Of a stretch of 6,580 nt of DNA, positions 834 through 6,580 are shown piece after piece (the first letter of the stretch is position 1; each line of letters starts with the position of its first letter). A model generated the notes under the pieces. It saw only the letters and a program-made list of their open reading frames with translations, had not been told where the DNA came from and searched no databases. The translations under genes and the position numbers were made by a program. The stretch comes from Desulfobacteraceae bacterium (GTDB lineage Bacteria > Desulfobacterota > Desulfobacteria > Desulfobacterales > Desulfobacteraceae), in contig JAFLJU010000278.1 of NCBI GenBank assembly GCA_022712835.1, positions 1 through 6,580 of the forward strand, given 5' to 3'.

Positions 834-2213
834 TTGAAAAACGAATCGATTAAACGAACAGAACTGATAAAGACCATGGAAAAGATTTTTGATCCCATTC
901 CCATCCCCATTATCCTGGTTGATAAAAACATGAAGGTTCAAATGTTGAACAAGGCTTTTGCCCAATTTCTGAATTATAATAAAAAAGATATGATCGGTAA
1001 AAGCGCCATTGAGCTGGATAAAAACACACGATGGCCTGCTGTTTTTAAAAGCAAACAGGCGGAAATCGCCTGGAAGCATACATTTGTCAACGGAAAAACG
1101 GCTGTTGTTCATCGGATTCCCGTCATGGATGAAGACAATCATGTAGCTTACGGATTTGGAATGGTCCTTTTCGAAACTGTTGAGAACATGAAAGAGATCA
1201 TTAAAAATAACAGACTGCTCGAATCAAAGCTCAAACATTATGAAAAGGTCCTCTCCCAGATCAATACAACCACGTATACCTGGGATCATATCTCAGGACA
1301 GAGCGCGGCAATTTTGCAGACCATCAAAATGGCAAAAAAAGCGTCGCAAACGATTTCGACCGTTCTTTTAACCGGAGAGAGCGGTACCGGAAAAGAACTT
1401 TTTGCCCATGCTATCCATCATGGGAGCCGGAGAAAATCTAAACCATTTATAAAAATTAACTGTGCTGCCATTCCTACGGAGTTAATTGAATCCGAACTAT
1501 TTGGCTATGAGAGCGGTGCATTCACAGGAGCCAGAAAAGGCGGTAAAAAAGGAAAATTTGAATTGGCAGATACCGGCAGCATCTTTCTGGACGAAATTGG
1601 CGATCTGCCACTGAATATGCAGGCAAAACTCTTGCGTGTGCTCCAGGAAAAGGAATTTGAAAGAATCAGCGGGAATAAAACCATCAAAGTAGATGTCCGG
1701 GTGATTGCGGCAACCAACAGAAATCTGAAGGAAATGTGTCAGGCAGGGCATTTTCGGTCTGATCTGTATTTCAGGCTAAACGTGATGTCCATACAGATTC
1801 CTTCTTTAATAGAGCGGATGGATGATCTTGAGTTCTTGACAGAAGTATTGCTCGACAAGCTCTCCTTTAAGCTGGACAAGAAAAAAATTCCCATCTCGGA
1901 TAGTGCAATGGCGGCCTTGGAAAGGTATCACTGGCCGGGCAATATCAGGGAACTTGAGAATATGCTTGAGCGTGCCATGATTCTTGCGGATCATGGGGTC
2001 ATCACTCCAAATAACCTTGCGATTCCCCAGGCGATGTCCGATTCATCCTATGGACCGTCAAGCCAGTCTTTAAAAGCCATCGTTGAAACAGCAGAAAAAA
2101 ATGCCATCATCCTTTGTCTAAAGAAGGTAAACGGAAATCGTTCCAAGGCGTCAAGGCTCTTAGGAATCAGCAGATCTGGATTGTATGACCGGCTTAAAAA
2201 ACTCAATATGTAA
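834..2213 (+). CDS. Sigma-54-dependent activator, PAS-AAA+-Fis HTH
   Basis: This 459-residue protein activates RNA polymerase carrying sigma-54 by ATP hydrolysis. A PAS domain fills about residues 16-115 (I-I-L-V-D-K-N-M-K-V start, N-Y-N-K-K-D-M-I-G-K segment). A helical, coiled-coil-like linker follows at about 116-142. The AAA+ domain spans about 152-395: Walker A GESGTGKE 181-188, sigma-54-contacting GAFTGA 228-233, Walker B IFLDE 250-254, sensor I AATNR 292-296, the arginine-finger region FRSDLYFRLN 307-316, and sensor II WPGNIRELE 367-375. A Fis-type helix-turn-helix ends the protein (N-R-S-K-A-S-R-L-L-G-I-S-R-S-G-L-Y-D-R-L, 435-454). All catalytic motifs look intact. There is no receiver domain and no membrane segment, so it is likely a one-component cytoplasmic sensor; the PAS ligand or cofactor is unknown. 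The start is TTG with GAGGAG nine bases upstream. An in-frame ATG at 876 has no good ribosome site and would cut into the PAS edge. The target is inferred to be the adjacent transporter operon, whose upstream region has a sigma-54 promoter and candidate activator sites. Confidence 0.95.
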   Translation: MKNESIKRTELIKTMEKIFDPIPIPIILVDKNMKVQMLNKAFAQFLNYNKKDMIGKSAIELDKNTRWPAVFKSKQAEIAWKHTFVNGKTAVVHRIPVMDEDNHVAYGFGMVLFETVENMKEIIKNNRLLESKLKHYEKVLSQINTTTYTWDHISGQSAAILQTIKMAKKASQTISTVLLTGESGTGKELFAHAIHHGSRRKSKPFIKINCAAIPTELIESELFGYESGAFTGARKGGKKGKFELADTGSIFLDEIGDLPLNMQAKLLRVLQEKEFERISGNKTIKVDVRVIAATNRNLKEMCQAGHFRSDLYFRLNVMSIQIPSLIERMDDLEFLTEVLLDKLSFKLDKKKIPISDSAMAALERYHWPGNIRELENMLERAMILADHGVITPNNLAIPQAMSDSSYGPSSQSLKAIVETAEKNAIILCLKKVNGNRSKASRLLGISRSGLYDRLKKLNM

Positions 2214-2218
2214 ACGTA

Positions 2219-2236
2219 TGTCCAGAATACCGACAC
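2219..2236. promoter_or_regulatory. Candidate upstream activator site A (imperfect)
   Basis: TGTCC (2219-2223) and CGACAC (2231-2236) form an imperfect inverted repeat with a 7-base spacer, starting five bases after the regulator stop codon. It resembles sites B and C but is one base shorter and has one arm mismatch. It lies about 200 bp upstream of the predicted operon start, within enhancer range. It abuts site B with about 20 bp (two helical turns) between their GACAC cores, consistent with tandem dimers on one DNA face. Confidence 0.35.
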
Positions 2237-2237
2237 C

Positions 2238-2258
2238 TGTTTGGGTTTTAGGACACTT
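2238..2258. promoter_or_regulatory. Candidate upstream activator site B
   Basis: TGT-TT-GG-G-TT-TTA-GGACACTT matches site C (2310-2330) at 15 of 21 aligned positions, including an identical GGACACTT right end. The left arm is degenerate (TGTTT instead of TGTCC). The spacing between arms, 8 bases, is the same as in site C. The two sites start 72 bp apart, close to seven helical turns, so a protein bound to both would face the same side of the DNA. Confidence 0.45.
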
Positions 2259-2309
2259 TACTCAAGTCATTAGATGGCGTTTTCATTTGAACATCCCCGC
2301 TTAAAAATA

Positions 2310-2330
2310 TGTCCGGATTAATGGACACTT
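2310..2330. promoter_or_regulatory. Candidate upstream activator site C (best inverted repeat)
   Basis: TGTCC (2310-2314) and GGACA (2323-2327) are perfect inverted arms separated by 8 bases, followed by CTT shared with site B. Its centre is about 110 bp upstream of the predicted sigma-54 transcription start, the typical position for an enhancer-binding protein. The likely binder is the Fis-type regulator encoded just upstream. This is inferred from position and symmetry, since the true motif for this protein is unknown. Confidence 0.5.
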
Positions 2331-2401: not shown

Positions 2402-2418
2402 TTGGTATGAAGTTTGCT
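2402..2418 (+). promoter_or_regulatory. Sigma-54 (-24/-12) promoter of the transporter operon
   Basis: TTGGTATGAAGTTTGCT matches the sigma-54 consensus YTGGCACG-N4-TTGCW: the invariant GG (2404-2405) and GC (2416-2417) are separated by exactly ten bases, and the TTGCT block is complete. Only two bases of the -24 block (CAC to TAT) deviate. Transcription should start near 2429, leaving a leader of about 60 bases. The presence of a GAFTGA-containing activator gene immediately upstream strongly supports the call. Confidence 0.8.
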
Positions 2419-2489: not shown

Positions 2490-3692
2490 ATGGAAAAAAG
2501 ACACATCTTAAAAGTGGCCTGTCTGATTATGGCCACCCTTATCCTTTCTTCCCCTCTGCGAGCAGCGCAACCCATAAAAATTGCCCAGCTCGCCTGCCTG
2601 ACCGGACCTTACGAAGCCTATGCCAAGCAGGCAGTGGAAGGATTCAAACTGGGTCTTGAATATGCCACCCAGGGAACCTTTGAAGTTCTTGGACGACCCA
2701 TTGAAGTGATTGTTAAAGATACTCACATGAAACCGGATATGGGTAAACAGCTTTTGACCGCTGCTTTTCAGGATGACAAAGTCGACCTGGCAGTCGGTCC
2801 GGTATCTTCTGCCGTGGCCATGGCCTGTCTTCCTGTTGCCAAAGAATTTAAGAAAATCCTCATTGTTGAGCCGGCTGTGGCAGACTCCATCACTGGAAAA
2901 GCCTGGAACCGATATATCTTCAGGACCGGCAGAAACTCATCCCAGGATGCCATTGCAGGGGCAACAGCCATTGGTGGTCCCGGTGTAAACGTGGCCTATA
3001 TTGCTCAGGACTACACCTTTGGTCGCGATGGGGTTGCAACGGCTAAAGAAGCGTTAGCTGCCACCGGTGCCAAGGTGGTTCATGAAGAATATATGCCTTT
3101 GAACACAGTTGATTTTACAGCCCCAGCCCAACGGATCATCAAGGCCATGAGCAAGGTAAAAGGTAAAAAGTATCTGTCCATTTACTGGGCCGGTAAAAAT
3201 AATCCCACAGCCAAACTCAATGCAATGAAACTGGACAAACGGTACAACATCCAGATGGCTGTTAGCGGTAATATCATTGATGTTCTTAAAACCTATAAAA
3301 ATCTGGTTGGCGCAGAAGGCGGCAACTATTACTACTATGAAAGCCCGAAAAACGAAGTCAATGACTGGCTGGTAAAAGAGCATTTTAAACGCTTTAATAC
3401 ACCACCGGATTTTTTCACCTGTGGTGGCATGAGTGCTGCCATGGCAGTGGTGAAAGCATTAAAAGAGGCCAAAACAACAGAAACCGAAACCTTGATTTCA
3501 ACCATGGAAGGCATGCACTTTCAGACGCCTAAAGGTGAAATGGTCTTCAGGAAAGAAGACCACCAGGCACTTCAGGATATGTATGCCTTTAAAATCGTTA
3601 ATAGAAAAGGTATTGCATGGGGTATCCCGGAAGTCACAAAAGTGATTTCATACAAAGACATGGATATCCCCATTAGAAACACAAGCAATTAA
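2490..3692 (+). CDS. Periplasmic substrate-binding protein, Liv/HAAT type (Peripla_BP_6)
   Basis: This 400-residue protein captures the transported solute in the periplasm and hands it to the permeases. Residues 1-25 form a Sec signal peptide: basic start MEKRHILK, hydrophobic core to about residue 20, likely cleavage after L-R-A25. No lipobox is present, so it should be a free periplasmic protein. The mature part shows type I periplasmic-binding features: I-K-I-A-Q-L-A-C-L-T-G-P-Y opening (29-41), V-G-P-V-S-S-A-V-A (102-110), Q-D-Y-T-F-G-R-D-G (173-181), a Tyr-rich patch at 280-283, and T-P-K-G-E-M-V-F-R (346-354). Length is normal for the family. AGGAG (2479-2483) sits six bases before ATG 2490. 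It is the first gene of the operon, behind the sigma-54 promoter. It is LivK-like, but the ligand is not readable: relatives bind branched-chain amino acids, amides, urea or aromatic acids. Confidence 0.9.
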   Translation: MEKRHILKVACLIMATLILSSPLRAAQPIKIAQLACLTGPYEAYAKQAVEGFKLGLEYATQGTFEVLGRPIEVIVKDTHMKPDMGKQLLTAAFQDDKVDLAVGPVSSAVAMACLPVAKEFKKILIVEPAVADSITGKAWNRYIFRTGRNSSQDAIAGATAIGGPGVNVAYIAQDYTFGRDGVATAKEALAATGAKVVHEEYMPLNTVDFTAPAQRIIKAMSKVKGKKYLSIYWAGKNNPTAKLNAMKLDKRYNIQMAVSGNIIDVLKTYKNLVGAEGGNYYYYESPKNEVNDWLVKEHFKRFNTPPDFFTCGGMSAAMAVVKALKEAKTTETETLISTMEGMHFQTPKGEMVFRKEDHQALQDMYAFKIVNRKGIAWGIPEVTKVISYKDMDIPIRNTSN

Positions 3693-3703
3693 CAGGAGCG
3701 TAT

Positions 3704-4471
3704 ATGAATTTAGCACCTGCTATTGAAACAAAGGATTTATCCATCCAGTTTGGTGGCCACATTGCCGTGGACAAGCTGAATTTCACAGTGGATCCCTTTA
3801 GTTTAAAATCCATTATCGGCCCCAATGGGGCCGGTAAGACCACCTTGTTCAACCTGATCTCAGGCCAGTACACCCCTACATCCGGTCAGGTGTTTCTCAA
3901 TGGCAGGGATATTACAAAATTAGGGGTGGCCAAAAGGACCAACCTGGGCATTGGCAGGTCCTTCCAGTTGACCAACATCTTTCCTTGCCTCACGGTATTG
4001 GAGAATGTCCGCCTGGCCCTCCAGGCCAAAGAAGATGTGGGCATGGTTTTCTGGAAACACTTTAAAAAGTACCCGGAACTGGAAGAAATGGCCCATGGCT
4101 TTCTTAAGCAGGTGCTGCTGGATGACAAGGCCATGTCCGAGGCCAGTCTGCTCACCCATGGGGAACAGCGAAAACTTGAAATTGCAATCCTCCTGGCCCT
4201 GGACCCCGATGTCCTTTTGCTGGATGAACCCACCGCCGGAATGAGCCTGGAAGACGTACCCGCCATCCTTGAGATTATCCAGGAGATCAAGGCACTGAGA
4301 AACAGGACCATTCTTTTGGTGGAGCATAAGTTTGATATGATCATGGCAGTCTCAGATTCCATAACGGTTCTCCAGGAAGGCCGGATCATCTGTGATGATA
4401 CACCCGAGGCAGTGTCCAACAACGAAGACGTGCTCAAGGCATATCTCGGTGGAGGTGTTAAAAATGGATGA
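3704..4471 (+). CDS. livG: ABC transporter ATPase, LivG type
   Basis: This 255-residue cytoplasmic ATPase is one of two that power uptake through the LivH/LivM-type permease pair. Motifs are in order: Walker A GPNGAGKTT 39-47, Q-loop Q88 in R-S-F-Q-L-T, ABC signature L-T-H-G-E-Q at 150-155, Walker B V-L-L-L-D-E 170-175, and the switch histidine H208 in L-V-E-H-K-F-D. The F-P-C-L-T-V-L-E-N-V segment (93-102) after the Q-loop is typical of LivG. The signature starts L-T-H rather than the more common L-S-H, a conservative change. It starts 11 bases after the binding-protein stop, with AGGAG (3694-3698) five bases before ATG 3704. It overlaps the next gene by 8 bases, suggesting translational coupling. 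The symbol denotes family membership, not a proven leucine substrate. Confidence 0.93.
   Translation: MNLAPAIETKDLSIQFGGHIAVDKLNFTVDPFSLKSIIGPNGAGKTTLFNLISGQYTPTSGQVFLNGRDITKLGVAKRTNLGIGRSFQLTNIFPCLTVLENVRLALQAKEDVGMVFWKHFKKYPELEEMAHGFLKQVLLDDKAMSEASLLTHGEQRKLEIAILLALDPDVLLLDEPTAGMSLEDVPAILEIIQEIKALRNRTILLVEHKFDMIMAVSDSITVLQEGRIICDDTPEAVSNNEDVLKAYLGGGVKNG
4451..4455 (+). promoter_or_regulatory. Ribosome binding site that sets the LivF start
   Basis: GGAGG ends eight bases before ATG 4464-4466, inside the last codons of the livG gene. It favours this ATG over the in-frame ATG at 4392, which would add 24 residues with no LivF similarity and a 79-base overlap with livG. Confidence 0.75.
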
Positions 4472-5171
4472 TGTTCTGTTGTCCCTTGATAATGTTCACA
4501 CCCATATTGCGCAACATCATATTCTCCAGGGCGTCACGTTGAACGTGGCGCCGGGAGACGCCACCATTCTTCTGGGCAGAAACGGCGCTGGCAAATCCAC
4601 TACCTTAAAAACCATTATGGGCCTTTACCCTGCATCCACAGGGAGTATCCATTTTAACGGTCACAGGATTGAAGCAAAAAAGACCCATGAGATTGCCCGC
4701 ATGGGCATGGGCTTTGTGCCCGAGGACCGAGCCGTCCTGTTTAATTTAACCGTGGAGGAAAACTTTCGCCTCTCCATGATTGAGGAAAATGAAAAAACAG
4801 ACGCCAACCTCACAGAAGTTTTAGCGCTTTTTCCCGCATTGAAAAAGTTCTGGAAAACAAAGGCCGGCCTCTTATCCGGCGGGCAAAAACAGATGCTGGC
4901 CATTGCCCGGGTCTTTGTCTGTGACCATGCCCTTCTTCTCATTGACGAACCCTCCAAGGGGCTTGCCCCTATTGTTGTGGATCAGCTGGGAGAAGCCCTT
5001 TTAAGAATTAAAAATAAAACAAAGGTGATCCTGGTGGAGCAAAACTTTAACCTGGCCCTTCAGGTGGGATCAGACTGCTTTATCCTGGATGGCGGACAAG
5101 TGGTTTTTCACGGCATGATTAAGGAGCTGGCAAAGGATAAAACAATGATGAAAAAATATTTGGGGATTTGA
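4464..5171 (+). CDS. livF: ABC transporter ATPase, LivF type
   Basis: This is the second ATPase of the transporter, 235 residues from ATG 4464, close to the usual LivF length of about 235. Motifs: Walker A GRNGAGKST 38-46, V-P-E-D-R 85-89 in the Q-loop position, signature LSGGQ 137-141, Walker B A-L-L-L-I-D-E 156-162 followed by P-S-K-G-L-A-P, and L-V-E-Q-N 190-194. Two apparent changes, Glu87 in place of the Q-loop Gln and Gln193 in place of the switch His, are normal for LivF proteins and help tell it from LivG. The frame is open further upstream (ATG 4392), but those codons lie over the livG 3' end and give non-homologous sequence. It overlaps livG by 8 bases (ATGGATGA) and is followed after 3 bases by livH. 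It should form a heterodimer with LivG at the inner face of the membrane. Confidence 0.93.
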   Translation: MDDVLLSLDNVHTHIAQHHILQGVTLNVAPGDATILLGRNGAGKSTTLKTIMGLYPASTGSIHFNGHRIEAKKTHEIARMGMGFVPEDRAVLFNLTVEENFRLSMIEENEKTDANLTEVLALFPALKKFWKTKAGLLSGGQKQMLAIARVFVCDHALLLIDEPSKGLAPIVVDQLGEALLRIKNKTKVILVEQNFNLALQVGSDCFILDGGQVVFHGMIKELAKDKTMMKKYLGI

Positions 5172-5174
5172 AAA

Positions 5175-6182
5175 ATGACAACTCAAACACTGGCCATCAC
5201 CGCTAATCCCAAATTTAAAACCCGTCTGAATTGGGCCATGGGCCTTGGCCTGCTTCTTTTGCCACTGATCTGGATCGATCTTGTCACCTATCTCACTCTC
5301 ACCGTGGCCGGGATTTCCTTTGGCATGTTAATTTTTCTCATCGCATCCGGTCTGACGCTGATTTTTGGTCTCATGGATGTGCTCAATCTGGCCCATGCCG
5401 CCTTTTTTGCCTTTGGTGCCTATGCTGGATTTACCGTGTTAAATTTCTTTAACAGCCTGGGATGGATAGAAACCGCTTCCCTGCCTGCCAGTCTTTTTTA
5501 CCTGCTAATGGCCCTTTTAATATCCGGGCTTGTGGGCGCACTTTTAGGTGTTGCCACGGAAAAGTTAGTGATCAAGAAAGTGTATGGTGATCACCTGATG
5601 CAGCTGTTAGCCACCGTGGGCGTTTCCTTTGTCATCGTGGAATTTTTAAAAATCATTTGGGGTGTGAATAATGAAGTTGTTCCGATCCCCTTTGGGTTCC
5701 TGGAAAGCATCATCATCTATGGCGTCTTTATCGAATATTTCAGGATCATCACCATTGTAGTGGGTGTGGGTATCTTTGCCACCCTCCAGTATCTTTTGAA
5801 AAAAACAAAGATTGGGATCATTGTCCGGGCAGGGGTTGAAAACCCGGAAATCGTCAGGACCACCGGGTATAATATCAGCCGTATTTTCACCCTTATTTTT
5901 GCCGCCGGAGCTGGCCTTGCAGCCATTGGTGGTACCATGATGGCGGTCTTTAACCAGGCCGTTGACCCGGGTATGGGAGATCAATTTCTTATCTTTGCCC
6001 TGATCGTTGTCATCATTGGTGGTATGGGATCTGTCACGGGCAGTTTTGTGGGGGCCATCATTGTGGGGCTCTCGTTTAACTATGTGGCATTCCTGGTGCC
6101 TAAGATGGCACTTGGGGTGAATTTCATGATCATGGCAGTCATTCTTTTAATCCGCCCAAAAGGGCTTTTCGGGAAAGATTAA
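5175..6182 (+). CDS. livH: ABC transporter permease, LivH type
   Basis: This 335-residue inner-membrane permease (BPD_transp_2) is one half of the translocation channel. It has a hydrophilic N-terminal tail of about 18 residues, then a series of hydrophobic segments: roughly 20-40, 42-65, 72-92, 105-126, 142-162, 178-205, 235-260, 270-300 and 308-327. Family landmarks are G-L-T-L-I-F-G-L-M-D-V-L-N-L-A-H (59-74) with A-F-G-A-Y-A-G (79-85), a cytoplasmic coupling-type loop R-A-G-V-E-N-P-E-I-V-R-T-T-G (218-231), G-G-M-G-S-V-T-G-S-F-V-G-A (282-294), and the R-P-K-G-L-F-G (327-333) C-terminus. It is slightly longer than typical LivH (about 300 residues), mainly from the N-terminal tail. ATG 5175 follows the livF stop by 3 bases; GGGGA (5162-5166) inside livF is the likely ribosome site. 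Substrate unknown. Confidence 0.92.
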   Translation: MTTQTLAITANPKFKTRLNWAMGLGLLLLPLIWIDLVTYLTLTVAGISFGMLIFLIASGLTLIFGLMDVLNLAHAAFFAFGAYAGFTVLNFFNSLGWIETASLPASLFYLLMALLISGLVGALLGVATEKLVIKKVYGDHLMQLLATVGVSFVIVEFLKIIWGVNNEVVPIPFGFLESIIIYGVFIEYFRIITIVVGVGIFATLQYLLKKTKIGIIVRAGVENPEIVRTTGYNISRIFTLIFAAGAGLAAIGGTMMAVFNQAVDPGMGDQFLIFALIVVIIGGMGSVTGSFVGAIIVGLSFNYVAFLVPKMALGVNFMIMAVILLIRPKGLFGKD

Positions 6183-6185
6183 CAA

Positions 6186-6580
6186 ATGGGTATCAGCATG
6201 GCAAATCAATTGACATTAGAAGAGCACAACAGGCCCAATACCAATAAAGGGGTGACCTCTTTTGGATACCTTCAAATCGGCATCATCGCTGTTTTAGCTG
6301 TCATGCCCTTTATATTCCCCTCCTTTAAACTCATGGATGTGATGGCCAAAATAATGATTTTCACCATTGTGGTGGCATCCTTTGATCTGTTGTTGGGATA
6401 TACCGGCATCCTGTCTTTTGCCCATGGCATGTTTTTCGGCATTGGTGCCTATTCCCTTGCCCTGATCCTGTATCACACGCCAAACCCAGCCTGGTATCAC
6501 ATTTTTTTAGCTGCCATCATCTCCCTTACCATCAGTATCGGGCTTGCCCTGGTAATTTCGTTTTTCTCCCTTCGGGTAAA
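6186..6580 (+). CDS. livM: ABC transporter permease, LivM type, 3'-truncated by window edge
   Basis: This is the second permease subunit; 131 codons are present and the frame is open at the right edge. It starts MGISMANQLTLEEHNRPNTN, a polar tail of about 25 residues, then a hydrophobic segment at about 27-46. The LivM landmark V-A-S-F-D-L-L-L-G-Y-T-G-I-L-S-F-A-H-G (63-81) follows, then F-F-G-I-G-A-Y (83-89) and another membrane segment at about 105-126. LivM proteins are usually 300-400 residues or more, so well over half is missing. ATG 6186 lies 3 bases after the livH stop, with GGGAAAGA (6171-6178) as a modest ribosome site. ATG 6198 (MANQ) is an in-frame alternative that would shorten the tail by four residues; no family landmark decides between them. 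It should pair with LivH. Confidence 0.9.
   Translation, partial: MGISMANQLTLEEHNRPNTNKGVTSFGYLQIGIIAVLAVMPFIFPSFKLMDVMAKIMIFTIVVASFDLLLGYTGILSFAHGMFFGIGAYSLALILYHTPNPAWYHIFLAAIISLTISIGLALVISFFSLRV

Follow-up and report, generated by a model that had tools for sequence, protein, structure and literature searches.

UAS (enhancers) of sigma-54 activators built of TGT and ACA half-sites have been described in two collections of motifs. In D. vulgaris, three motif groups contain TGT and ACA 9, 11 or 12 bp apart, according to the main text of that study (PMC4641369). In the Clostridiales, the main text of the corresponding work reports such half-sites, 10-12 bp apart, in 15 of 39 groups, including that of PrdR, and likens them to those of FhlA and NifA; most of the UAS lie 100-250 bp ahead of the promoter, and 32 groups have more than one site (PMC6615313). 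As described in both texts, the regulons mostly comprise one or a few operons, and the activator genes adjoin their targets in many or most cases (PMC4641369, PMC6615313).

Here we analyzed a 6,580-nt stretch of DNA from a Desulfobacteraceae bacterium (hereafter, the window), in which three dyads, A, B and C, lie between a sigma-54 activator gene and a transporter operon. They resemble the class outlined in the main text of these studies (PMC4641369, PMC6615313) in having several sites with half-sites 11 bp (A) or 12 bp (B and C) apart, located 100-210 bp upstream of the expected -24/-12 start, and an adjacent activator with a Fis-type HTH, but differ from it in the inner bases, CC(GG)/(CC)GG, and in the target operon. 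The pentamers TGTCC and GGACA are absent from the main text of both publications. The half-site class is thus already known, and the array of the window is a further member of it, whose specific motif did not turn up in the texts examined. The first-pass annotation of this DNA could not match the sites to any regulator motif that it could name; this was not borne out, as the texts cited show that TGT/ACA half-sites with a spacing of 9-12 bp recur as a type of sigma-54 UAS (PMC4641369, PMC6615313).

PrdR (NCBIfam NF041552) is the top NCBIfam model for the window activator, but the score of 424.5 bits lies below the cut-off of 795, and the target of PrdR is proline reductase, whereas that of the window is an ABC transporter. 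HbcR-type activators of hydroxybutyrate catabolism are presumably similar to the alphaproteobacterial clade that shares the motif frame (see below), whose neighbors include a CoA-transferase in L126, a TRAP-type binding protein in L127 and permease-like genes recognized by eye. The HbcR site is not given in the accessible text of PMC10482368, and no report of an operator of the window type was recognized among the best-ranked literature matches for the motif, the system or HbcR, including the text of PMC3333781. In the accessible texts of PMC3462791, PMC13207237 and PMC5552954, the TGTCCGG or CCGGACA strings belong to primers or form part of a -24/-12 sequence.

Organization of the locus

The activator gene is separated by a 276-bp gap from an operon encoding an ABC transporter of the branched-chain-amino-acid type, which extends from position 2490 onward (Table 1). 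The activator shows Pfam matches to Sigma54_activat (6.8e-72), HTH_8 (1.3e-12) and PAS (2.2e-06), and its translation contains GAFTGA; it therefore combines an AAA+ domain carrying this motif with a Fis-type HTH and is of the one-component type. Its start coincides in the alignment with the start in several orthologues.

Table 1. Genes, dyads and promoter element of the window
Feature	Position	Strand	Remarks
Sigma-54 activator (bEBP): PAS, AAA+ with GAFTGA, Fis-type HTH_8	834..2213	+	Proposed binder of A-C
Site A, distal, TGT-N11-ACA dyad TGTCCAGAATACCGACA	2219-2235	.	17 bp; 5 bp after activator stop codon
Site B, TGT-N12-ACA dyad TGTTTGGGTTTTAGGACA	2238-2255	.	Weak left arm; read directly from sequence
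Site C, proximal, exact TGTCC-N8-GGACA dyad TGTCCGGATTAATGGACA	2310-2327	.	Read directly from sequence
Sigma-54 promoter -24/-12 TGGTATGAAGTTTGCT	2403-2418	+	GG 2404-2405, GC 2416-2417
Periplasmic substrate-binding protein, operon gene 1	2490..3692	+	Pfam Peripla_BP_6 4.3e-59; nearest solved relatives 3n0x, 3nnd
ABC ATPase, LivG/UrtD type	3704..4471	+	Specific-family scores below curated cut-offs
ABC ATPase, LivF/UrtE type	4464..5171	+	Score below curated cut-offs
Permease, LivH/UrtB type	5175..6182	+	Specific-family scores below curated cut-offs
Second permease, LivM/UrtC-type partner inferred from gene order	6186..6580	+	Open frame running to window end

Several further features of the region were noticed. 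A DUF3786 gene (3-599, - strand) is divergent from the activator gene and, as far as seen, unrelated to the sites. Codon 1809-1811 specifies Ile in the window activator, while Arg or Lys stands there in the rest of the alignment, apart from P0137 with Asn; P0121, otherwise 100% identical (rounded) to the window activator, also differs at this codon, and the Ile may represent a polymorphism or a sequencing error. In P0137 (549 aa), most of the window activator is joined to a permease-like end (Pfam PF02653), which probably reflects a misassembly or a gene fusion.

Direct reading of the sequence confirmed the first-pass description of C as a perfect inverted repeat and of B as matching it at 15 of 21 positions (71%) at a distance of 72 bp. 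A weaker site A had also been placed about 20 bp from B. The spacing stands, A beginning 19 bp ahead of B, but the weakness was overstated: the half-sites of A are one base closer than those of B and C (11- vs 12-bp spacer), and 9 of its 10 arm bases match in this N11 register. When the 276-bp gap was dinucleotide-shuffled 20,000 times, 2 shuffles contained a perfect dyad and 21 contained two or more TGT..ACA dyads of comparable quality, while three were never obtained (0/20,000), the statistic having been picked after the sites had been seen.

Downstream of the sites, TGGTATGAAGTTTGCT is the sole GG-N10-GC within the gap and the top-scoring element of the window (15/15, with C or T allowed at two consensus positions); its GG lies 94 bp past the start of C. 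With +1 set by a rule of thumb at ~2429, about 12 nt past the -12 GC, the centers of A, B and C fall near -202, -182 and -110, in agreement with the earlier placement of the sites 100-210 bp upstream of the predicted start. A near match to an IHF site was seen by eye between C and -24; nothing similar was seen in L002, the relative described below.

Conservation of the sites in close relatives

Of 564 loci that encode a binding-protein relative, we compared the best 80; seven of these are cut short upstream, L012 and L038 to less than 300 bp. The four closest loci belong to Desulfobacula, Desulfobacteraceae or Desulfobacterales. In one Desulfobacteraceae locus (L002; Thermodesulfobacteriota), an activator 78% identical to that of the window is encoded just upstream of the binding-protein gene. 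All three sites are retained at the distances found in the window (A-B 19, B-C 72 bp), A again being 17 bp long, and the -24/-12 element lies 93 bp past the start of C. Window and L002 are identical at 14/17 positions in A, 13/18 in B and 14/18 in C. Together, the four elements (A, B, C and promoter) are identical at 53/69 positions, compared with 62/191 (32%) in the remaining gap, a figure that omits the 16 bp ahead of the start codon, themselves 13/16 identical. The B-C spacer, unchanged in length, is identical at 13 of 54 bp. When the comparison was repeated with 260 circular shifts, the value of 53/69 was reached by the true placement alone.

Among the genomes searched, L002 was the only close relative with both the activator and the operon. 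The activator search was positive for a single genome, G002, among 86 genomes of the family, 389 of the order, 389 of the class and 395 of the phylum (the sets share genomes, and for the larger ones scoring covered only 4 to 19 first-look candidates per genome), and for none of six genomes of another family. The binding proteins of L001, L003 and L004 are 85-91% identical to that of the window, and beside them both a full-length activator of the window type and the three-site array are absent. L001 contains a partial activator (50% identical) that is truncated where the contig ends; it is encoded on the opposite strand, with a gene in between. In the whole genomes, the window activator has no match at 1e-100 in G001 and G004, and only a 46% identical one elsewhere in G003.

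L003 retains the -24/-12 element, with different dyads (TGTA..TACA). Since it keeps the promoter without an adjacent activator, another activator may act there. Two TGTA..TACA-like dyads (3697-3732), 18 bp apart, lie ahead of the element (3846), and two similar TGTAG..ATACA dyads, also 18 bp apart (1384-1419), were seen at L082, near the gene for the 46% identical activator encoded elsewhere in the same genome. Control of the L003 operon may have passed to the L082 activator.

Among the best 80 of the 564 loci, only L002 and L013 contain at least two near-perfect dyads in the upstream 600 bp. An activator match (E <= 1e-20) that is co-oriented and lies just upstream was likewise restricted to these two of the 80; L039, L050 and L062 have one near-perfect dyad each within the same distance. 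L018 lacks the sites, although it possesses a divergent activator (43%) and a match to the -24/-12 element. The phylogenetic footprint, proposed earlier as a check, thus came out in favor of the sites: the locus with both genes keeps all three of them, while L001, L003 and L004 lack the array. Overall, the sites are kept together with regulator and operon and are absent where the regulator is absent, the exceptions being L018 and L130 (see below).

Related activators in Alphaproteobacteria and plasmids

L013 belongs to Tistrella mobilis (Pseudomonadota), in which an activator 37% identical to that of the window is encoded directly before a 62% identical binding protein. The gap between them contains CGTCCGGAATTCCGGACA, TGTCCGGCAGACCGGACG, CGTCCGGAAAGCCGGACA and TGGCATGCCCCTTGCT. 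A search of 385 genomes of the class of Tistrella revealed such an activator in 12, Tistrella included. In total, 18 loci chosen by the activator (L121-L138) were studied, 13 from the class search and five from plasmids (of 34 matching plasmid records), with flanks of 1.5 kb for L121-L133 and 3.5 kb for the rest.

A relative of the binding protein was present within the stretch in 6 of the 18 loci, and five of the six (L121-L125) carry an array of TGTCCGG-N4-CCGGACA before a -24/-12 promoter, with activators 37-40% identical to that of the window. L121-L123 are near-identical and represent one lineage; thus three alphaproteobacterial lineages and L002 share this motif, and the window is close to it. 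The sixth locus, L130, encodes both the activator and the binding protein (54%), yet has weak dyads only. In Azospirillum (L134) the activator follows a branched-chain-type ABC operon whose binding protein showed no tblastn relationship at 1e-8; in the stretches scanned no array was found at L134, where a single dyad with one mismatch was present, and L135 yielded no such dyad.

Activators of the same clade adjoin other operons as well, containing a CoA-transferase (L126) or a TRAP-type binding protein (L127); hydrophobic permease-like genes were recognized by eye alongside those of L129, L132, L136 and L138, the fragment in L129 being without a Pfam match. At L126, L127, L129 and L132 the outer TGTC/GACA is kept exactly or with a mismatch, and the inner bases differ. 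In L126 and L127, the site nearest the activator stop codon has an 11-bp spacer (TGTCTGATAATCCGACA, TGTCCGAGATTCCGACA), as in the window, despite the different operons. We also noticed TGTCCGC..CGGACA or TGTCTC..GAGACA-like dyads with a -24/-12 element beside the same-clade activators of L129, L132 and L136-L138. In L136-L138, from Burkholderiales plasmids, the dyads are TGTCTC..GAGACA-like and precede a divergent -24/-12 element; in two of the three a permease-like frame follows (none was read in L137). The context of these five loci suggests one activator clade for the uptake of small organic acids.

We counted sites in 14 loci selected for a -24/-12 match beside the gene for the activator or the binding protein, a set that excludes L128, L131, L133 and L134-L138. 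There were 29 sites of 18 bp and five of 17 bp (0.93 expected each), three of 16 bp and two of 19 bp (1.01 expected each), with the near-identical L121-L123 counted three times and overlapping registers counted separately; L003 and L018 contain none of the counted sites. Among the loci left out, L128 and L133 have no array, and L131 has two dyads, matching at 9 and 8 of 10 positions.

The locus activator was the best match of the window activator in all five alphaproteobacterial genomes tested. In the reverse search from Tistrella, the local activator of G002 ranked second, not first; strict orthology across phyla is therefore not established. The recognition helix SR[AS]xxY[DE][RK] is present in 11 of 14 aligned rows, including every locus with a TGTCCGG array. 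It deviates in L130 and L132 (SRAxFYKK) and in the G002 competitor L086 (HRTLLYRK); L128 has the helix, and no array was found there.

Spacing of the sites

The first-pass annotation regarded the three sites as helically phased. At 10.5 bp per turn, the distances between centers in the window correspond to 1.86 turns for A-B (19.5 bp) and 6.86 turns for B-C (72 bp), each ~51 degrees short, and A-C (8.71 turns) is out of phase. The A-B/B-C distances are 19.5/72 in the window and L002, 20.5/65 in L126, 20/65.5 in L127, 28/68 in L124, 28/72 in L125 and 28/24 in L121. Over these seven loci the B-C phases are scattered (resultant 0.19), and the A-B phases are more clustered (0.75), yet around -73 degrees rather than zero; whole-turn spacing is therefore not a conserved property. 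Helical phasing was accordingly rejected as a conserved rule, being approximate in the window and not kept across lineages. What is conserved in the seven loci compared is a close distal pair followed by a proximal site.

The distal pair occurs in two forms. In the first (window, L002, L126, L127) the sites are ~20 bp apart and the site with the 11-bp spacer comes first; in the second (L121-L123, L124, L125) they are exactly 28 bp apart and have 12-bp spacers. The proximal site usually follows 65-72 bp on (24 in L121-L123), with its center 61-106 bp before -24. This layout is not seen in L129, which has two sites, or in L130 and L132. It is possible, although we put it forward only tentatively, that these arrangements reflect a '2+1' enhancer grammar extending across two phyla and differing target operons, in which the distal pair would nucleate two ring dimers and the proximal site the third, while the outer TGTC/GACA would be fixed and the inner bases would set operon specificity.

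Distribution of the motif in whole genomes

A genome scan for TGTCC-N8-GGACA, also proposed earlier as a way to define the regulon, revealed no enrichment over the control in G001-G004 (G002, 9 vs 7; G001, 6 vs 11; G003, 7 vs 12; G004, 7 vs 9), and a genome-wide regulon was rejected. The lack of a general excess in G002 is as expected for a single target. The longer GTCCGG-N4-CCGGAC was found in six copies in G002 and in five in Tistrella, with none in either control, and in one copy in G404, the genome of L018 (control, 1). In Tistrella mobilis three of the five copies lie in the activator/binding-protein gap. The five G002 copies outside L002 are all within mechanical open frames and were not counted as targets; one of them (L118) has a TGG-N9-TGC match ~240 bp downstream, inside a frame.

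Discussion

Sites A-C are very probably the binding sites and enhancer of the neighboring activator. This reading builds on the sites themselves, their exact conservation where the activator is kept, the promoter, and the fact that the motif recurs next to related pairs of activator and transporter. The proposed mechanism draws on general knowledge of sigma-54 activators as regards binding, ring assembly, looping and the signaling role of PAS. Via the Fis-type HTH, dimers would bind A, B and C as dyads of the form TGTCC(GG)-N4-(CC)GGACA. Upon receiving a signal through the PAS domain, the activator would assemble on this DNA into an AAA+ ring, and the DNA between C and -24 would loop. ATP hydrolysis would then remodel the sigma-54 polymerase waiting at 2403-2418, and the transporter operon would be switched on.

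Alternatively, A-C could serve as operator for some other regulator with a share in controlling the operon, either a repressor or a second sigma-54 activator from the same genome. Activator-like candidates are numerous in genomes of the family (88 and 69 first-look candidates in G002), TGT..ACA half-sites are common to several Desulfovibrio activator groups in the main text of PMC4641369, and in L003 the promoter is kept without an adjacent activator. However, the array accompanies an adjacent co-oriented activator in binding-protein loci of two phyla (with the exception of L130), and the recurrence of the motif tracks the clade of the window activator; we therefore consider this explanation unlikely.

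Because A sits 5 bp past the activator stop codon, one could also suppose that the sites serve, additionally or mainly, autoregulation of the activator or termination of its transcript. A lies beside the stop codon in L002 too, and in L124 and L125 a site overlaps the activator match at its end; against this, the perfect dyad C is distant from the gene end, the distance to the -24/-12 element is similar, and the sites of L129 are located upstream of the activator and precede a -24/-12 element that is divergent, which makes such a role very improbable. That A-C are functionless inverted repeats produced by chance in AT-rich intergenic DNA is hardly credible: B is imperfect and short dyads do arise by chance, but three dyads never appeared in the shuffles, the sites are conserved in L002 amid DNA that is 32% identical, and arrays recur in distant genomes.

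Thus, with the conservation in L002, the absence from three relatives and the alphaproteobacterial arrays all agreeing with the earlier proposal that A-C represent the binding motif of the neighboring activator, we consider it highly likely that they form its predicted UAS, the target set probably being one operon. An activator of unassigned role thereby gains a concrete candidate operator and target, together with a refined motif, TGTCCGG-N4-CCGGACA. Since one clade of activators allows site geometry to be compared between phyla and between target operons, it can now be asked which spacings of dimer sites are tolerated by sigma-54 activator rings.
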